NCBI RefSeq assembly: GCF_001618145.1
Contig: NZ_KV392043.1
Location: 62,001 to 126,000, forward strand
From: Oceanobacillus damuensis
GTDB taxonomy: Bacteria; Bacillota; Bacilli; Bacillales; Amphibacillaceae
Reading direction: 5' to 3'
Length of the DNA: 64,000 nt
Shown: piece after piece, positions 1,621 through 51,164 of the stretch
Position numbering within the stretch: position 1 is the stretch's first letter
Layout of the letters: every line of letters starts with the position of its first letter
Translations under genes and position numbers: made by a program
Notes under the pieces: generated by a model
What the model was told of the DNA's origin: nothing
What the model saw: only the letters and a program-made list of their open reading frames with translations
Database searches by the model: none

Positions 1621-1628
1621 ACAAATAA

Positions 1629-1655
1629 GACCCTTCATTAGATTGAGGGTCTTTT
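1629..1655 (+). terminator. Intrinsic terminator after MFS gene
   Basis: GACCCT/AGGGTC stem with an 11-base loop followed by CTTTT. A dispersed two-hairpin repeat begins 4 bp later. Confidence 0.8.
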
Positions 1656-1659
1656 GCTT

Positions 1660-1748
1660 GGCAGACAGGAAAGTATAAAACTTTCCTATCTGCATAAGTG
1701 CAACTAAGGCTGTCACCGAAAGGCTTGGTGACAACCAAGTTTTCTAAT
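1660..1748 (+). repeat. Terminator-following repeat, copy 1 (reference copy)
   Basis: About 89 bp. Hairpin A: GCAGACAGGAAAG / CTTTCCTATCTGC around TATAAAA, one mismatch. Then a linker TAAGTGCAACTAAGGCT, hairpin B GTCACC / GGTGAC with loop GAAAGGCTT, and a tail AACCAAGTTTTCTAAT. It directly follows the MFS terminator in the same orientation and ends at the 3' end of the convergent HTH gene. Other copies: 6793, 22327 (minus), 26186, 33698, 45082, 46620, 51103. Confidence 0.85.
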
Positions 1749-6793: not shown

Positions 6794-6864
6794 GGCAGGT
6801 AGTATAAACTTACCAACCTGCATAAGTGAAGCATTTATAAGAAGTGGGATTGCTTTTTCTAATG
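6793..6864 (+). repeat. Terminator-following repeat, copy 2 (degenerate)
   Basis: GGCAGGTAGTATAAACTTACC-AACCTGCATAAGTG matches hairpin A and the linker of copy 1; hairpin B is degraded, but the TTTTTCTAATG tail remains. Same orientation as the terminator just upstream. Confidence 0.65.
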
Positions 6865-13862: not shown

Positions 13863-14648
13863 TTAAATACTCTCTAATTGACGTTTAATAAATCTAGTAA
13901 AATACTCTATGGAAATAATCATTAGAAAGATTACAAAAGTAACTCCTAGAGCAAGATCATATCGAGAAGACTGTGTTGCAGCCATTAATTCCCACCCGAT
14001 TCCTCCTGCACCAACAACACCAAGAATTGATGAATACCGGACATTAATATCAAATCTAAAAACAGACCATGAGATTAATATACTTACAATTGATGCAAAC
14101 ACCCCTTGGAAAATAACTTGAAGGGGAGAAGCACCCGTGGAACGAATCGCCTCGATGATTTCGACGTCCATTTCCTCAATCGATTCAGCATAAACTTTTA
14201 CAAGCATCCCTATACTATTAACAGCTATCGCTAAAATACCAGGTGTAGGTCCGAAACCGACAGCAATAATGAATAACATTGCCCAAATCAGAGCAGGTAC
14301 AGAACGCACAAATGCAGCAAAGGCTTTAATGACATAGCTTACCAAAGGATAAGGTGATAGATTTGATGCGGCAAATATAGCTAGAATCAAAGAAATAATA
14401 ATTCCAAGAACAGTCCCAACCACCGCAACCTGGAGCGATTGAATGACAGCCTCAAATAAAATCATAGGTTCAGATATTTGTGGCGGGAACATTCGATCTA
14501 ACATATATTTCCCTCGCTCAAAGGATTCGAAAAACTGTGTAAATGTTATATTCAATTGTGAAAAACTAAATACGAAAAGGATTGCAATGATGATTAAAGC
14601 ATTGGGATGTCTAATATGTTTTATCCAACTGTTATTTTTCGCCGTCAT
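13863..14648 (-). CDS. phnE: PhnE-type ABC transporter permease (second)
   Basis: 261 residues with about six membrane segments and the permease cytoplasmic loop EIIEAIRSTGASPLQVIFQG (EAA-type) that contacts the ATPase. It overlaps the upstream permease gene by 4 bp (ATGA), so the pair is translationally coupled and probably forms a heterodimeric channel. PhnE proteins serve phosphonate, phosphite or other phosphorus-ester uptake. No C-P lyase genes accompany it here, so import of phosphonates as such is only one option. Confidence 0.85.
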   Translation of the reverse strand: MTAKNNSWIKHIRHPNALIIIAILFVFSFSQLNITFTQFFESFERGKYMLDRMFPPQISEPMILFEAVIQSLQVAVVGTVLGIIISLILAIFAASNLSPYPLVSYVIKAFAAFVRSVPALIWAMLFIIAVGFGPTPGILAIAVNSIGMLVKVYAESIEEMDVEIIEAIRSTGASPLQVIFQGVFASIVSILISWSVFRFDINVRYSSILGVVGAGGIGWELMAATQSSRYDLALGVTFVIFLMIISIEYFTRFIKRQLESI

Positions 14649-22113: not shown

Positions 22114-22326
22114 CTATTCGTCCCCTTAACCAAATTACTATTGTGAATAAGCATAATTGTAACAAATTAAATTAAGACGCAAAAATGTATAAATTACTAT
22201 CTTACACTTTTTATATATAACTTTTTCCCCAGGTTCTCTATAGATTTACCCGCGTCTAAAACTGGTAGCAGCCTTGTATACAGCCAGAAGAACAGGGGTA
22301 TATACCCTCCCAAAGTGGAATAAACA

Positions 22327-22413
22327 TAGAAAACTTAGCTGTCACCAAGCCTTTCGGTGACAGCCTTAGTTGCACTTGGATGCAGGATGGAAAGTTTTAT
22401 TATCCTATCAGCC
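22327..22413 (-). repeat. Terminator-following repeat, copy 3 (minus)
   Basis: On the minus strand it reads GGATAATAAAACTTTCCATCC (hairpin A), linker AAGTGCAACTAAGGCT, hairpin B GTCACCGAAAGGCTTGGTGAC, then TAAGTTTTCTATG. It begins directly after the gltS-type terminator and in the same sense as that gene. The remaining gap 22114-22326 shows nothing. Confidence 0.8.
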
Positions 22414-26152: not shown

Positions 26153-26185
26153 AAGGACTGTCCTTACCAGTTGGACAGTCCTTTT
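26153..26185 (+). terminator. Intrinsic terminator after DUF2512 gene
   Basis: AAGGACTGTCC / GGACAGTCCTT with 9-base loop and TT tail; repeat copy 4 starts at its end. Confidence 0.9.
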
Positions 26186-26261
26186 AAGTATAAACTACCA
26201 ACCTGCAAAAGTGCAGCTAAGGCCGTCACCGAAAGGCATGGTGACAACCAAGTTTTCTAAT
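26186..26261 (+). repeat. Terminator-following repeat, copy 4
   Basis: Hairpin A is eroded (TATAAACTACCAACCTGC), but AAAGTGCAGCTAAGGC, hairpin B GTCACCGAAAGGCATGGTGAC and AACCAAGTTTTCTAAT are nearly identical to copy 1. Same sense as the terminator before it. Confidence 0.8.
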
Positions 26262-32194: not shown

Positions 32195-33697
32195 ATGAAT
32201 TTAGAAACATATTTAAAATTAGATGCGACCGAAATGGCAAATTTGGTGCGGAAAAAAGAAGTAAACTCAAGAGAATTACTGGAAATCGCCTTCAAGCAAC
32301 TGGAAAAAGCTGATCCACTCTTAAACATTGCCACACATACAAGAATGGATCAAGCCCTTGAAGAAGCGGAGCGAATATCGATAGAGAATGCGCCGTTTAA
32401 TGGTGTCCCTATATTGATGAAAAATATTTCCCAAAGTGTTGAAGGGAAACCATTGACTTCCGGTTCGAGGCTTCTTAAAGAAAGTCGATCCAAACATGAT
32501 TCCTATTTTGTGAAGAAATTTCGTGATGCCGGTTTCCATTTTATGGGGCACACGAATGCACCGGAATTTGGCTTAAAGAATATTACAGAACCAAAGCTGT
32601 ACGGACCAACCAGAAATCCGTGGAATGCAGAGTATTCACCGGGAGGATCAAGTGGCGGAGCAGCCGCTGCAATTGCAGCAGGAATTGTCCCGATGGCAGG
32701 GGCGAGCGATGGTGGTGGATCCATACGCATTCCAGCTTCGTTCACAAGTCTTTTCGGTTTGAAACCGACAAGGGGACGTACACCCGTTGGTCCTGGAGTC
32801 GGTCGGCAGTGGCAAGGTGCCTCCATTAATTTTGTATTAAGCCGGACGGTGCGTGACAGTGCTGCAATGCTGGATATCCTTCAAGTTGTCCAGCCGGAAG
32901 CGGCCTTTCAGGTCCCATTATTTGCAGGTAGTTATAAAGATGCCATGCAGCAAGACTTTGACAGACCACTACGTGTCGCTTTTTCCACCAAGTCACCGGT
33001 CGGTACGCCTGTGTCTGAAGAAGCGAAAATGGCTGTGGAGAAAACTGTCCAGTGGTTGGAAGGACAAGGCCATCATATAGAGGAAAAAGAAAATGATGTG
33101 GACGGAATCCAACTGATGAGGGATTACTACATCATGAATAGCGGGGAAATGAATGCAACGATCTTAGGTTTGGAGCAAATGATTGGCCGTGAAATTACTG
33201 CCGAGGATGTAGAAATTGAAACATGGTTGCTGCACGAAGCAGGAAAATCAATTTCTGCAGCTGCGTTTTCGGCAAGTCTCGCATCATGGGACATTGCGGC
33301 GGCACAGATGGCTCACCTCCATCGCACATATGATTTTTATATTACACCTGCCACAGCAAATACAGCACCGAAAGTAGGGGAGCTGACGTTTTCTGAAAAG
33401 GAACAGGAGCAATTGCTGTCATATATGGAAAAAGCAAATAGGAGTGGCAAGCAGGAACTGATTTATGACATGTTTTTGCCAAGCTTAACGTATACACCGT
33501 TTACCCAGCTTGCGAATCTGACCGGACAACCAGCAATGTCTGTACCACTGCACCTGTCTCGGAATGGTCTTCCTTTAGGGGTGCAAATTTTGGCGCAGAA
33601 AGGGGAAGAACATCGGCTGCTTCAGTTGGCCGATAAATTGGAGCAATCAGGTTTATGGATCGGGATGAAAGGGAATCCGTATTTTGATAGACAGTAA
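32195..33697 (+). CDS. Amidase signature family protein
   Basis: 500 residues. Ser-cisSer-Lys triad visible: Lys in VPILMKNISQ (~79), cis-Ser in GGSSGGAAAAIAAG and nucleophile Ser in GASDGGGSIRIPAS. Such enzymes hydrolyse amides, including aryl and amino-acid amides. ATG at 32195 follows GGAGTGATGTACAT; the longer frame from 32165 has no site. An AbgT-family transporter lies downstream, separated by a repeat and a cre-like site, so both may serve amide or acyl-amino-acid use. Confidence 0.9.
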   Translation: MNLETYLKLDATEMANLVRKKEVNSRELLEIAFKQLEKADPLLNIATHTRMDQALEEAERISIENAPFNGVPILMKNISQSVEGKPLTSGSRLLKESRSKHDSYFVKKFRDAGFHFMGHTNAPEFGLKNITEPKLYGPTRNPWNAEYSPGGSSGGAAAAIAAGIVPMAGASDGGGSIRIPASFTSLFGLKPTRGRTPVGPGVGRQWQGASINFVLSRTVRDSAAMLDILQVVQPEAAFQVPLFAGSYKDAMQQDFDRPLRVAFSTKSPVGTPVSEEAKMAVEKTVQWLEGQGHHIEEKENDVDGIQLMRDYYIMNSGEMNATILGLEQMIGREITAEDVEIETWLLHEAGKSISAAAFSASLASWDIAAAQMAHLHRTYDFYITPATANTAPKVGELTFSEKEQEQLLSYMEKANRSGKQELIYDMFLPSLTYTPFTQLANLTGQPAMSVPLHLSRNGLPLGVQILAQKGEEHRLLQLADKLEQSGLWIGMKGNPYFDRQ

Positions 33698-33772
33698 AAC
33701 TACAAACCTACCAAACACATAAATGCAACCGAGGCTGTCGCCCGAAAGTCCTGGACAGCCAGGATTTCTAAT
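33698..33772 (+). repeat. Terminator-following repeat, copy 5 (divergent)
   Basis: AACTACAAACCTACCAAACAC-ATAAATGCAACCGAGGCTGTC...GACAGCCAGGATTTCTAAT: linker, hairpin B and tail are recognisable with several changes. It follows the amidase stop directly; no separate terminator is seen, so it may act as one. Confidence 0.65.
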
Positions 33773-44806: not shown

Positions 44807-44927
44807 GATTAAATTCTAGAAAAGTCCCATAAAACGAACAAATCACACGTTATTTCCGTTTATTGTTCGTATTTTATTGACATGGATTAAAATGGTTAGT
44901 AATATAGTATTGTAATTTAATAAAAAA

Positions 44928-44991
44928 GCGTATAATTTCGGGGATATGGCCCAGAGTTTCTACCAGACTGCCGTAAATGGTCTGACTACGC
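44928..44991 (+). ncRNA. Guanine riboswitch upstream of pbuG
   Basis: P1 GCGTA / TACGC, ATTTCGGGGATATGGCCC (P2), AGTTTCTACC, AGACTGCCGTAAATGGTCT (P3) and GACTACGC with C at the ligand-pairing position. Matches the purine riboswitch consensus throughout. Confidence 0.93.
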
Positions 44992-45049
44992 GGAATAAAG
45001 TGATTGGCCATTCGGTTAAGCACTGCTTGTTCTGTATAGTAAAAGTAGC

Positions 45050-45081: not shown

Positions 45082-45205
45082 GGCAGGTAGGAAAGGATAA
45101 ACTTGCAAACCTACATAAACTAATGTATAGGAAACATTTCTATTGCGTGAATGCAATGAAGACTCGCCCTTCAGCAGGCATGGGCATTTGCCAAGTTTTC
45201 CGTGG
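45082..45205 (+). repeat. Terminator-following repeat, copy 8 (divergent, expanded)
   Basis: GGCAGGTAGGAAAGGATAAA then CTTGCAAACCTACATAA matches hairpin A and linker start; hairpin B is replaced by GACTCGCCCTTCAGCAGGC-type sequence and the tail CCAAGTTTTC remains. It lies inside the pbuG leader, after the riboswitch terminator and before the gene. Confidence 0.5.
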
Positions 45206-45270: not shown

Positions 45271-46575
45271 ATGAAGGAGTATTTTCAGTTTGAAAAACTT
45301 GGTACAAGCTATAAAACGGAATTTATGGCTGGTTTGACAACATTTCTAGCTATGGCTTACATTCTTTTTGTCAATCCATCCATTTTAAGTGAAGCGGGAA
45401 TGGATGATGGGGCAGTATTTGCAGCAACTGCGATTGCAGCAGCAGTCGGTTCTATCCTGATGGGACTTATAGCTAAATACCCTATCGTTCTTGCACCGGG
45501 TATGGGACTGAATGCATTTTTTGCCTACACGGTTGTACTAGGCTATGGAATCCCTTGGGAAACAGCATTGGCTGGTGTTTTGGCATCTGGACTTATTTTT
45601 ATTGTATTAACATTAACTGGAATTCGGGAAAAAGTTATTAATGCCATTCCAGCTAGCTTGAAAATGGCTGTTGGAGCAGGGATTGGACTATTTATTGCAT
45701 TTATTGGCTTACAGAATTCAGGTATCGTCGTATCAGATCCGGCAACAATGCTTGCTTTGGGTGACCTTACTTCTCCAACGGTACTATTGGCTGTTTTTGG
45801 TGTAGTTGTCTCTGTTATCTTACTTACTTTTGGTTTTAAAGCAGGGATTTTCTACGGAATGATCATTACTGCTATTACAGGGATGATTGTTGGATTGATT
45901 GGTGTTCCATCTGGAATTGGTGGCATTGTAAGTGGTGTTCCAAGTGTGGCACCAACTTTCGGTCAGGCTTTCCTGCATTTTGGTGATATTTTCACGATAG
46001 AAATGTTGGTTGTCATTTTAACATTCTTGTTCGTAGACTTTTTTGACACCGCAGGGACACTTGTTGCAGTAACATCTCAGGCTGGTTTGACGAAGGATAA
46101 CAAACTGCCGCGTGCCGGAAAAGCGTTATTTGCAGATTCAGCTGCAACTGTAGTCGGTGCAACTGTCGGTACATCTACTACAACCTCTTATGTAGAATCG
46201 ACAGCAGGTGTCGGTGTAGGTGGTCGTACTGGATTCACAGCAATCGTTGCTGCAGGATTTTTCCTGCTTGCACTATTCTTCTCACCTTTACTGAGTGTTG
46301 TCACGTCAGAAGTAACTGCACCAGCATTGATTATCGTCGGTGTCATGATGGCATCCTCGTTGAAACATATCGAATGGGACGAGTTTGAAACTGCAGTGCC
46401 AGCGTTCTTGACGGTATTGATGATGCCATTAACATATAGCATCGCTACAGGGATTGCAATCGGATTTATTTTCTATCCAATTACAATGATTGTAAAAGGT
46501 CGAGCAAAAGAAATACATCCGATCATGTATGGCTTGTTCGTAGTCTTTGTTCTGTATTTTATATTCTTGAGCTAG
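45271..46575 (+). CDS. pbuG: Guanine/hypoxanthine permease
   Basis: 434 residues, about 13 membrane segments, AzgA/PbuG branch of the NCS2 family: TEFMAGLTTFLAMAYILFVN, VLAPGMGLNAFFAYTV and FVDFFDTAGTLVAVT signatures. Imports guanine and hypoxanthine. ATG after AGGAGGAG. Leader has a guanine riboswitch, so guanine limits its own import. Terminator at 46586. Confidence 0.95.
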   Translation: MKEYFQFEKLGTSYKTEFMAGLTTFLAMAYILFVNPSILSEAGMDDGAVFAATAIAAAVGSILMGLIAKYPIVLAPGMGLNAFFAYTVVLGYGIPWETALAGVLASGLIFIVLTLTGIREKVINAIPASLKMAVGAGIGLFIAFIGLQNSGIVVSDPATMLALGDLTSPTVLLAVFGVVVSVILLTFGFKAGIFYGMIITAITGMIVGLIGVPSGIGGIVSGVPSVAPTFGQAFLHFGDIFTIEMLVVILTFLFVDFFDTAGTLVAVTSQAGLTKDNKLPRAGKALFADSAATVVGATVGTSTTTSYVESTAGVGVGGRTGFTAIVAAGFFLLALFFSPLLSVVTSEVTAPALIIVGVMMASSLKHIEWDEFETAVPAFLTVLMMPLTYSIATGIAIGFIFYPITMIVKGRAKEIHPIMYGLFVVFVLYFIFLS

Positions 46576-46619: not shown

Positions 46620-46672
46620 GGCAAGTAAGAAAGTACAAACATTCTTTCTTGGATAAGTGCAACTAAAGCAAT
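46620..46672 (+). repeat. Terminator-following repeat, copy 6 (truncated)
   Basis: GGCAAGTAAGAAAGTACAAA and CATTCTTTCTTGGATAAG form hairpin A; GTGCAACTAAAGC is the linker; hairpin B is missing. Starts on the last base of the pbuG terminator. Confidence 0.75.
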
Positions 46673-46762
46673 TTATCGTTATCATACGATAACTTCAAGA
46701 GAGAATAAAATAATTCCCCTTGGATACGGGCCATTCGACAAATTCCAACAAAAACCGGGAAG

Positions 46763-51066: not shown

Positions 51067-51104
51067 AATGAGCATATCTGAATTAAAGGTATGCTCATTT
51101 GTTT
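51067..51104 (+). terminator. Terminator after UPF0316 gene
   Basis: AATGAGCATA / TATGCTCATT with 13-base loop, then TGTTT. Confidence 0.8.
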
Positions 51105-51164
51105 GCAGACAGGAAAGTATAAAACCTTTCTTTCTGCATAAGTGCAACTAAGGCTGTTTTCTAA
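51103..51164 (+). repeat. Terminator-following repeat, copy 7 (hairpin B deleted)
   Basis: GCAGACAGGAAAGTATAAAA and CCTTTCTTTCTGC give hairpin A almost as in copy 1; AAGTGCAACTAAGGCTG continues into TTTTCTAA, so hairpin B has been removed cleanly. Confidence 0.8.

Follow-up and report, generated by a model that had tools for sequence, protein, structure and literature searches.

Group IIC introns insert behind intrinsic terminators. Among mobile DNAs that carry no gene, the PATEs of Haloquadratum are described, in the sections of PMC3119063 available to us, as having no terminal inverted repeats, palindromes near both termini, no target duplication and a length insufficient to encode a transposase; forms shortened by deletion of the core also occur, and PATE ends match resident IS605-type transposons. 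Elements of the IS200/IS605 family (TnpA, Y1) carry one hairpin per end, are flanked by a target resembling the last bases of the right end and insert in a single orientation (PMC6006769, in the part at hand). We describe here a repeat from Oceanobacillus damuensis that is a short, non-coding, non-autonomous mobile DNA element of about 86–89 nt, with a hairpin (A) at its left end and two alternative hairpins (B and C) at its right end.

As a kind, the element is PATE-like; its targeting of a hairpin plus T-run, its terminator-like end, a linker shared across classes and a missing partner are new. It shares with PATEs the lack of terminal inverted repeats, hairpins near both termini (A and B/C), the absence of duplication, the small size (~86–89 nt) and the occurrence of shortened forms. 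However, PATE ends match resident IS605-type transposons, whereas no such partner was found for the element, and PATEs are archaeal, with no terminator preference mentioned in the available sections of PMC3119063. It resembles IS200/IS605 elements in having a hairpin at each end, a target T-run that resembles its right end TTTTCT and a single orientation, but differs in having no tnpA inside or linked to it, a hairpin A that stands at the junction, apparently without a left guide, and a hairpin plus T-run as target. REP/BIME sequences with their RAYT proteins are likewise short intergenic hairpin repeats of high copy number and patchy distribution, probably moved in trans (PMC6006769 and PMC3733652, in part), although the present element lacks a GTAG or CGTC tag, has two unlike hairpins in direct order, and was found with no flanked RAYT gene. 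The bcr1 and other Gram-positive repeats, compared by description only, are also structured, intergenic and mobile in behaviour (PMC2267715 and PMC3733652, in part).

A preliminary description of the window, i.e. the whole 64,000-nucleotide stretch that was analysed, had listed eight copies of a two-hairpin repeat. We searched the window, unfiltered, with a covariance model (R2; 87 positions, 24 pairs) built from 39 copies of the O. damuensis genome, with the upstream T-run left out. RNAalifold yielded no consensus for the training alignment (A2), so that the first model (R1) was built without pairs; the structure of R2 was drawn by hand from one copy and then checked by covariation. All eight copies were recovered at E-values between 6e-19 and 0.019 and are real: 110 bits at 1660 (+), 77 at 22326 (–), 69 at 26184 (+), 48 at 51104 (+), 42 at 33693 (+), 37 at 46620 (+), 29 at 6794 (+) and 24 at 45082 (+; E = 0.019). 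The copies at 1660, 22326, 26184 and 33693 score by construction because they were part of A2, and those at 51104, 46620, 6794 and 45082 were outside it. Further matches appeared only at E ≥ 0.061 and were opposite-strand shadows of copies or chance-like. Allowing up to three mismatches, the linker matched seven times in the window (six copies and a non-copy at 14310), with a mean of 1.43 matches in shuffles and 0 of 100 shuffles reaching seven. Inspection bore out the placement first reported, in that a hairpin with a T-tract directly precedes seven of the eight copies and the copy at 33693 directly follows a stop codon; all eight lie on the strand of the upstream gene, as read from the ORF lists for those at 6794 and 45082.

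Copy 1 is complete and occupies 1660–1747 (+), the element proper probably being 1661–1747 plus perhaps 1 nt. Its target, an intrinsic terminator with a T-rich tail, lies directly upstream at 1628–1659 (+). Hairpin A, the left end, spans 1661–1693 (+) and has a stem of 14 positions, GCAGACAGGAAAGT/ACTTTCCTATCTGC, of which one is mismatched here. The conserved linker, ATAAGTGCAACTAAGGC, follows at 1694–1710 (+); its last GGC opens stem B, and pairing is possible between its AACT and AGTT in the tail. Hairpin B (1708–1736, +) pairs GGCTGTCACC with GGTGACAACC, with a recurrent mismatch or bulge, and the alternative hairpin C (1724–1747, +), which excludes the top of B, consists of CTTGGT-GACA-ACCAAG followed by TTTTCTAA and gives the element a terminator-like right end.

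The remaining window copies are preserved to different extents. Copy 2 (6794–6862, +) is behind a terminator and degenerate in its right half; copy 3 (22326–22413, –) is behind a terminator; copy 4 (26184–26260, +), also behind a terminator, misses the 5΄ part of hairpin A; and copy 5 (33693–33771, +) is the copy that follows a stop codon, without a terminator. Copy 7 (46620–46684, +) and copy 8 (51104–51164, +) both lie behind terminators, the former reduced to hairpin A and the linker, the latter with hairpin B deleted and the TTTTCTAA tail kept. Copy 6 (45082–45201, +; model match 45082–45143) begins with hairpin A, which some 30 foreign bases separate from a linker-like stretch and, finally, the right end GGCATTTGCCAAGTTTTCC. 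Loss of hairpin B had been proposed for the copies at 45082 and 46620; by inspection, that at 45082 retains its right end, and those at 46620 and 51104 lack B. Copy 6 is preceded by a purine riboswitch at 44908–45008 and then a terminator, which is therefore not a gene-end terminator. This copy lies in the leader of a permease-like gene (45271–46575) and may alter riboswitch output.

Hairpins A and B covary between genera. In 79 distinct sequences from named records, both-side changes were found in 20 of the 24 pairs, 178 cells were double-changed (44.8 in shuffles), and the covariation score was 0.271 compared with 0.097 in shuffles and at most 0.043 in all slid controls, in an alignment that leans to the structure because it was fitted to the model. 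The 39 copies of the own genome scored 0.146 (shuffles, 0.101), and the number of pairs with double changes (11) was not above shuffles, 130 of 500 of which reached 11. By inspection, the two main subfamilies in this genome, GCAGGTAGG.../GTCACC and GCAAGTAAG.../TTCGCC, are distinct from each other in the two arms of each stem. DNA folding of three copies gave z-scores of –5.6, –7.0 and –11.4, and a single copy from Desulfosporosinus metallidurans, with a weak hairpin A, folded poorly (z = –2.0). At five D. metallidurans loci (L394, L396, L404, L406 and L408), hairpin A is replaced or interrupted by another, ACAGGGACACTTGGCCATCC-like repeat. The linker CATAAGTGCAACTAAGGC is common to Bacilli and Clostridia in a scan that was itself selected on the linker, and most linker columns are at least 90% conserved in the own genome.

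Hairpin C is formed from the 3΄ arm and has the general form CTTGG(Y)-N4/5-(R)CCAAG, with TTTTCT directly after it. B and C are mutually exclusive, overlapping folds, and both are conserved. An intact hairpin C (6/6) was found in 38 of the 112 copies of the own genome, 17 of 20 copies from genome G100, 62 of 83 copies from named records and 12 of 12 D. metallidurans copies, compared with 63 of 2000 random placements. With TTTTCT it folds at –7 to –9 kcal/mol, and the combined pattern, with at most one mismatch, had 55, 29, 32 and 47 matches in four genomes, in which the reversed pattern had none. TTTTCT itself is present at the right end of 67 of the 112 own copies. Since the right end consists of hairpin C and TTTTCT(AA/TTT), the element's own end looks like its target. 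The consensus ends, GCAGGTAGG... and ...AAGTTTTCTAA, are by inspection not inverted copies of each other, i.e. there are no terminal inverted repeats. The AAGG before hairpin C could pair with TTTT, and the left end has no space for a guide; the hairpin feet, N/GCAG and CTAA/GGC, contain by inspection no GT[AG]G foot.

In the own genome, a draft of 4.12 Mb in 73 contigs, the R2 search, in which the best 150 of 1268 candidates were scored, gave at least 139 matches at E ≤ 1, including shadows on the opposite strand. At E ≤ 0.02, there were 118 matches in the window together with the genomic stretches retrieved from around copies, and 112 once opposite-strand overlaps had been removed. They include a short form without hairpin A, for example at L027 (position 3241), L065, L076 and L100. 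Several copies (L012, L033, L050, L054, L057, L067, L092 and L099) end directly at an apparent ribosome-binding site of the following gene, whose start is not separated from it. A genome-wide tabulation of terminators and orientation had been proposed, with the expectation that copies always follow the sense of the upstream transcript; this is true of the window (8/8), but genome-wide 77 of 108 copies lie on the same strand as the upstream gene and 31 on the other (crude ORF caller, four copies within called ORFs left out), so that the orientation is not invariant. What the copies have in common is a T-run, with terminators favoured, 63 of the 112 copies having a hairpin and T-tract.

The element is inserted 3΄ of a T-run, with one base in between and a single orientation towards it, and has a strong preference for T-runs behind a terminator hairpin. 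Among the 65 best copies, T occurs at position –6 in 58, at –5 in 52, at –2 in 57 and at –1 in 55. At least four consecutive T within 8 nt were found at 67 of 112 copies, compared with 5.3% of 1000 random positions, and the 63 copies with a hairpin (ΔG ≤ –6) and T-tract compare with 1.6% of 1000 random positions, of which only those with four consecutive T were folded, so that the criterion was somewhat stricter than for the copies. As a fairer test, we compared T-runs of at least five: terminator-like hairpins (ΔG ≤ –8) were found at 37 of 57 copies behind such runs and at 22 of 103 intergenic runs, the latter taken from the window alone (odds ratio 6.8, P = 6e-8). T-run and hairpin both matter, and selection after insertion could add to the preference. 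Copies occur at terminator-free T-runs too, including the leaders of opposite-strand genes (L082, and L027 at 3241). The uniform sense orientation in the window arises because terminator T-runs lie on the coding strand, and is no rule of its own.

The same flank was seen in other genera, where we counted copies with at least four T in the 12 nt upstream and, of these, those with a terminator-like hairpin at ΔG ≤ –8. The two counts were 14 and 7 of 16 copies in Virgibacillus, 10 and 7 of 15 in Natribacillus, 5 and 4 of 7 in Lentibacillus, 5 and 2 of 7 in other Oceanobacillus, 5 and 1 of 7 in a Clostridiales bin, 5 and 5 of 9 in Desulfosporosinus from the scan, 12 and 8 of 18 in D. metallidurans, 7 and 3 of 8 in various others, and 2 and 0 of 14 in O. 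halotolerans. The T-run therefore recurs across classes, and the terminator share varies. In G100, the 20 copies fetched are nearly identical in appearance, with at least four T in 19 and a terminator-like hairpin in 15. In O. halotolerans (L157, 1930–2110, and other loci), several copies lie at one fixed place within another repeat and were apparently co-amplified. An orientation bias with respect to replication was also considered and rejected, as there was no excess over gene orientation alone at an assumed baseline of 75%: with the origin at base 1, and among the positions listed, the counts were 44/54 in G011, 14/17 in G055, 5/11 in G018 and 4/20 in G012 (16/20 with a fitted origin), out of 111, 27, 13 and 39 total matches, respectively.

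Empty orthologous sites support the mobility of the repeat. We searched the joined flanks of 12 of 36 suitable copies in 28 genomes of the genus, own included. At L064, which lies between genes with dnaK- and dnaJ-like translations, the repeat is absent and the terminator hairpin with its T-run is kept in 13 sister genomes. Seven of these were aligned, with terminator and T-run unbroken (G003, G009, G011, G013, G020, G026 and G027), and further comparison with a model search added six of eight other genomes, namely G007, G008, G012, G014, G018 and G025. Of the remaining two, G022 has a different repeat at this site, and the element itself is found, in diverged form, in G005 (30 bits, E = 0.001), which reflects either common descent or independent insertion. 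The terminator before the dnaJ-like gene is thus followed by the element in the own genome, by another copy in G005 and by a different repeat in G022 (L064, L343 and L341), and from these three occupancies terminators look like shared hot spots. At L092, G013 has an exactly empty site (TTTTTTAG/AAGGAGAAC, compared with TTTTTTAG[element]AAGGAGAAC), with nothing lost or duplicated and at most 2 nt of ambiguity; six other genomes have no repeat here, four of them with an unrelated spacer. The repeat is therefore a mobile element and not a conserved 3΄ RNA, so that, of the two possibilities raised in the preliminary description, targeting of terminators is supported, also by the preference among T-runs and by the T-run flanks in other genera, Clostridia included, and an RNA made by read-through is not supported, because the orthologous sites that we compared have not kept the copies.

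Copies also insert into and behind each other. In a Clostridiales genome, one copy is nested within hairpin B of another, GGCTTG/CACC...TTCTTTA/GCGCAAGCC, without duplication. Target duplication is thus absent at both readable junctions (L092/G013 and the nested copy). From these junctions and the tandems below, the element seems to extend from GCAG (or CACC, ACC) to TTTTCTAA (or TTTTCTTTA); the single base that separates it from the T-run seems to be part of the target. At L422 and L426, copies are nested in another copy's hairpin B loop, and L426 has a greatly lengthened hairpin A. The element further uses its own right end as a target, inserting head-to-tail behind itself: tandems with the left end right behind TTTTCT were found in D. 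metallidurans (four copies at L218/L363; pairs at L387, L409 and L383), in the own genome (L040 and L062) and in G100 (L131 and L137), from a tandem-junction search that listed nine, two of which (L055 and L236) were chance-like.

When the model was applied to 118 genomes, with at most 37 best candidates per genome scored, at least 35 were positive: the own genome, 22 of 27 others of the genus and 12 beyond it, in 13 of 90 genera. Among the matches listed for named genomes, the exact linker occurred in Virgibacillus, Oceanobacillus, Lentibacillus, Natribacillus, Geomicrobium, Ureibacillus, Brevibacillus, Bacillus and Desulfosporosinus, as well as in a Paenibacillaceae, a Bacillota and a Clostridiales bin. 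Phylum-wide, 5 of 398 genomes contained it, with 27 copies in the own genome and 40 in G233 (control, 0). This patchy, high-copy distribution across classes looks like horizontal spread and loss. The plasmid and phage collections gave no match; a viral-contig match of 19.7 bits, which overlaps an opposite-strand ORF of 127 aa, was taken as chance.

The repeat corresponds to no described family in the material searched. None of 4227 Rfam families reached its gathering score, so that the match to a known Rfam family that had been named as a possible refutation was not found; five sequence words of the element did not occur in the literature searched, nor was a description of the repeat recognised there, repeats such as Bhal-1 (PMC2267715, in part) being compared by description alone. 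Bacillaceae-1 RNA (RF01690) is likewise a dispersed, structured Bacillaceae repeat and adjoins some copies, but the element matches no Rfam family. Bacillaceae-1 RNA was seen at L139 (772–955), L141 (781–955) and L298 (1864–1930), twice paired, adjoining the element or a RAYT-like fragment. Four Natribacillus loci (L151, L175, L180 and L210) share a module of about 150 bp before their copies, which in L175 recurs about 290 bp upstream; it is a second short repeat with no gene inside.

We searched for the mobilising enzyme by linkage and by co-occurrence. Protein clusters of the neighbours revealed no transposase gene within or consistently beside copies, and none of the nine clusters listed was transposase-like on our reading, nor was a recombinase family seen enriched beside copies. 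The single PF01797 match in the own genome is a RAYT-like gene of 196 aa (L044, 1450–2040), with no flanking repeat of the terminator-homing family. PF01797 (Y1) was present in 100 of the 118 genomes, own included, and in all six of G100 and five named-record genomes, but did not co-occur with the repeat (30/35 repeat-positive and 70/83 repeat-negative genomes, P = 1); nor did RAYT relatives, found in 68 of the 118 (20/35 and 48/83, P = 1). The one-contig genome G012 has 39 repeat matches and no PF01797 match, and the repeat, searched by the model and by right-end and linker motifs, lies near only 1 of 55 PF01797 loci. A linked or co-occurring Y1 or RAYT protein was therefore rejected as the mobiliser. 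The GIIM group II maturase domain had no match in the own genome; among the 12 highest-copy genomes it was found in four and not in eight, own among the eight. It was somewhat commoner in repeat-positive genomes (21/35, compared with 32/83; P = 0.04), an association that is weak overall, and a group II maturase was rejected as well. For an autonomous version, the right-end pattern was searched in four genomes and three own-genome places missed by the model were then read; these are right ends that lack hairpin A, and none of the stretches read contained an autonomous copy. An inverted pair of 1 kb in the Clostridiales genome was set aside, as its enclosed ORFs are ordinary-looking (one metal-binding-domain-like), with no transposase recognised.

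The absence of duplication, the fixed orientation, the folded ends and the end-like flank are marks of IS200/IS605 elements and PATEs, and point to movement as a single strand, in trans. We lean towards a PATE-like, single-strand element moved in trans, possibly by an HUH enzyme, as the explanation that is probably correct; mobility and targeting are shown by the sites above, and the enzyme and the chemistry are proposed. The element would move as a single strand, as do IS200/IS605-family elements and their gene-less derivatives, the PATEs; an enzyme supplied in trans would recognise its folded ends and the conserved linker, and the recognition of hairpin plus T-run that serves the right end would pick out terminators as targets too. 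Insertion there would be tolerated because the upstream transcript stays intact and a second terminator-like hairpin is supplied. Against an HUH enzyme, hairpin A stands at the very junction, where a left guide tetranucleotide as in IS200/IS605 elements would have no space. The same element might instead be moved by other machinery, such as an integrase-kind recombinase of structured single-stranded DNA or an undescribed enzyme class, as folded ends, no duplication and a fixed orientation would also be expected of a recombinase acting on folded single strands and no HUH Y1 gene is linked or co-occurs; we consider this unlikely, since a flank matching the element's own right end (T-run, TTTTCT) is the IS200/IS605 arrangement (PMC6006769, in part), and no recombinase family was seen enriched beside copies. 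A domesticated role for the own genome's RAYT-like gene at L044 in spreading the repeat is in our view very unlikely: such genes also occur in D. metallidurans and G100, whose copies look alike, but L044 has no repeat, RAYT relatives do not co-occur with it, and its hairpins have no GT[AG]G foot.

Two further readings start from RNA. Spread by a reverse transcriptase of the group II (IIC-like) kind, with terminator hairpins as its recognition sites, would explain why the element, like IIC introns, inserts behind terminators, in its case as a preference and not a rule, and would fit the higher frequency of GIIM in repeat-positive genomes. However, GIIM was not found in the own genome nor in most of the highest-copy genomes, the element matches no ribozyme or other Rfam family and, with about 86 nt, is too small to be an intron, and the opposite-strand A-run is part of the element-free terminator and not a tail. 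We therefore judge this reading improbable, and the resemblance to group IIC introns that had been suggested is kept as an analogy only. It is similarly improbable that the repeat is an RNA device selected and kept by the host, a fail-safe terminator or 3΄-end stabiliser with B and C as alternative folds. The exclusive and conserved nature of the two folds, the folding energy of C with TTTTCT and the many copies behind terminators agree with such a device, but copies are not conserved between species at the compared sites, a number of them are without hairpin A or hairpin B, 31 of 108 run against the upstream gene, and the linker is strongly conserved without an obvious role in termination.

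Returning to the single-strand element moved in trans, we tentatively extend it to a whole family: the repeats may belong to a phylum-wide, terminator-homing family of single-strand DNA elements whose 3΄ end mimics a terminator, in which one hairpin plus T-run rule would both cut the element's own end and pick its target, host transcripts would stay intact, and spread in trans would depend on an enzyme outside the known linked transposases. Sites behind terminators are among the safest in a compact genome, and an own end that copies the address of the target would be a simple, testable principle of target choice for gene-less mobile DNA. The element could mislead the annotation of terminators and sRNAs, and its enzyme, once found, could reveal a new structure-guided single-strand recombinase.
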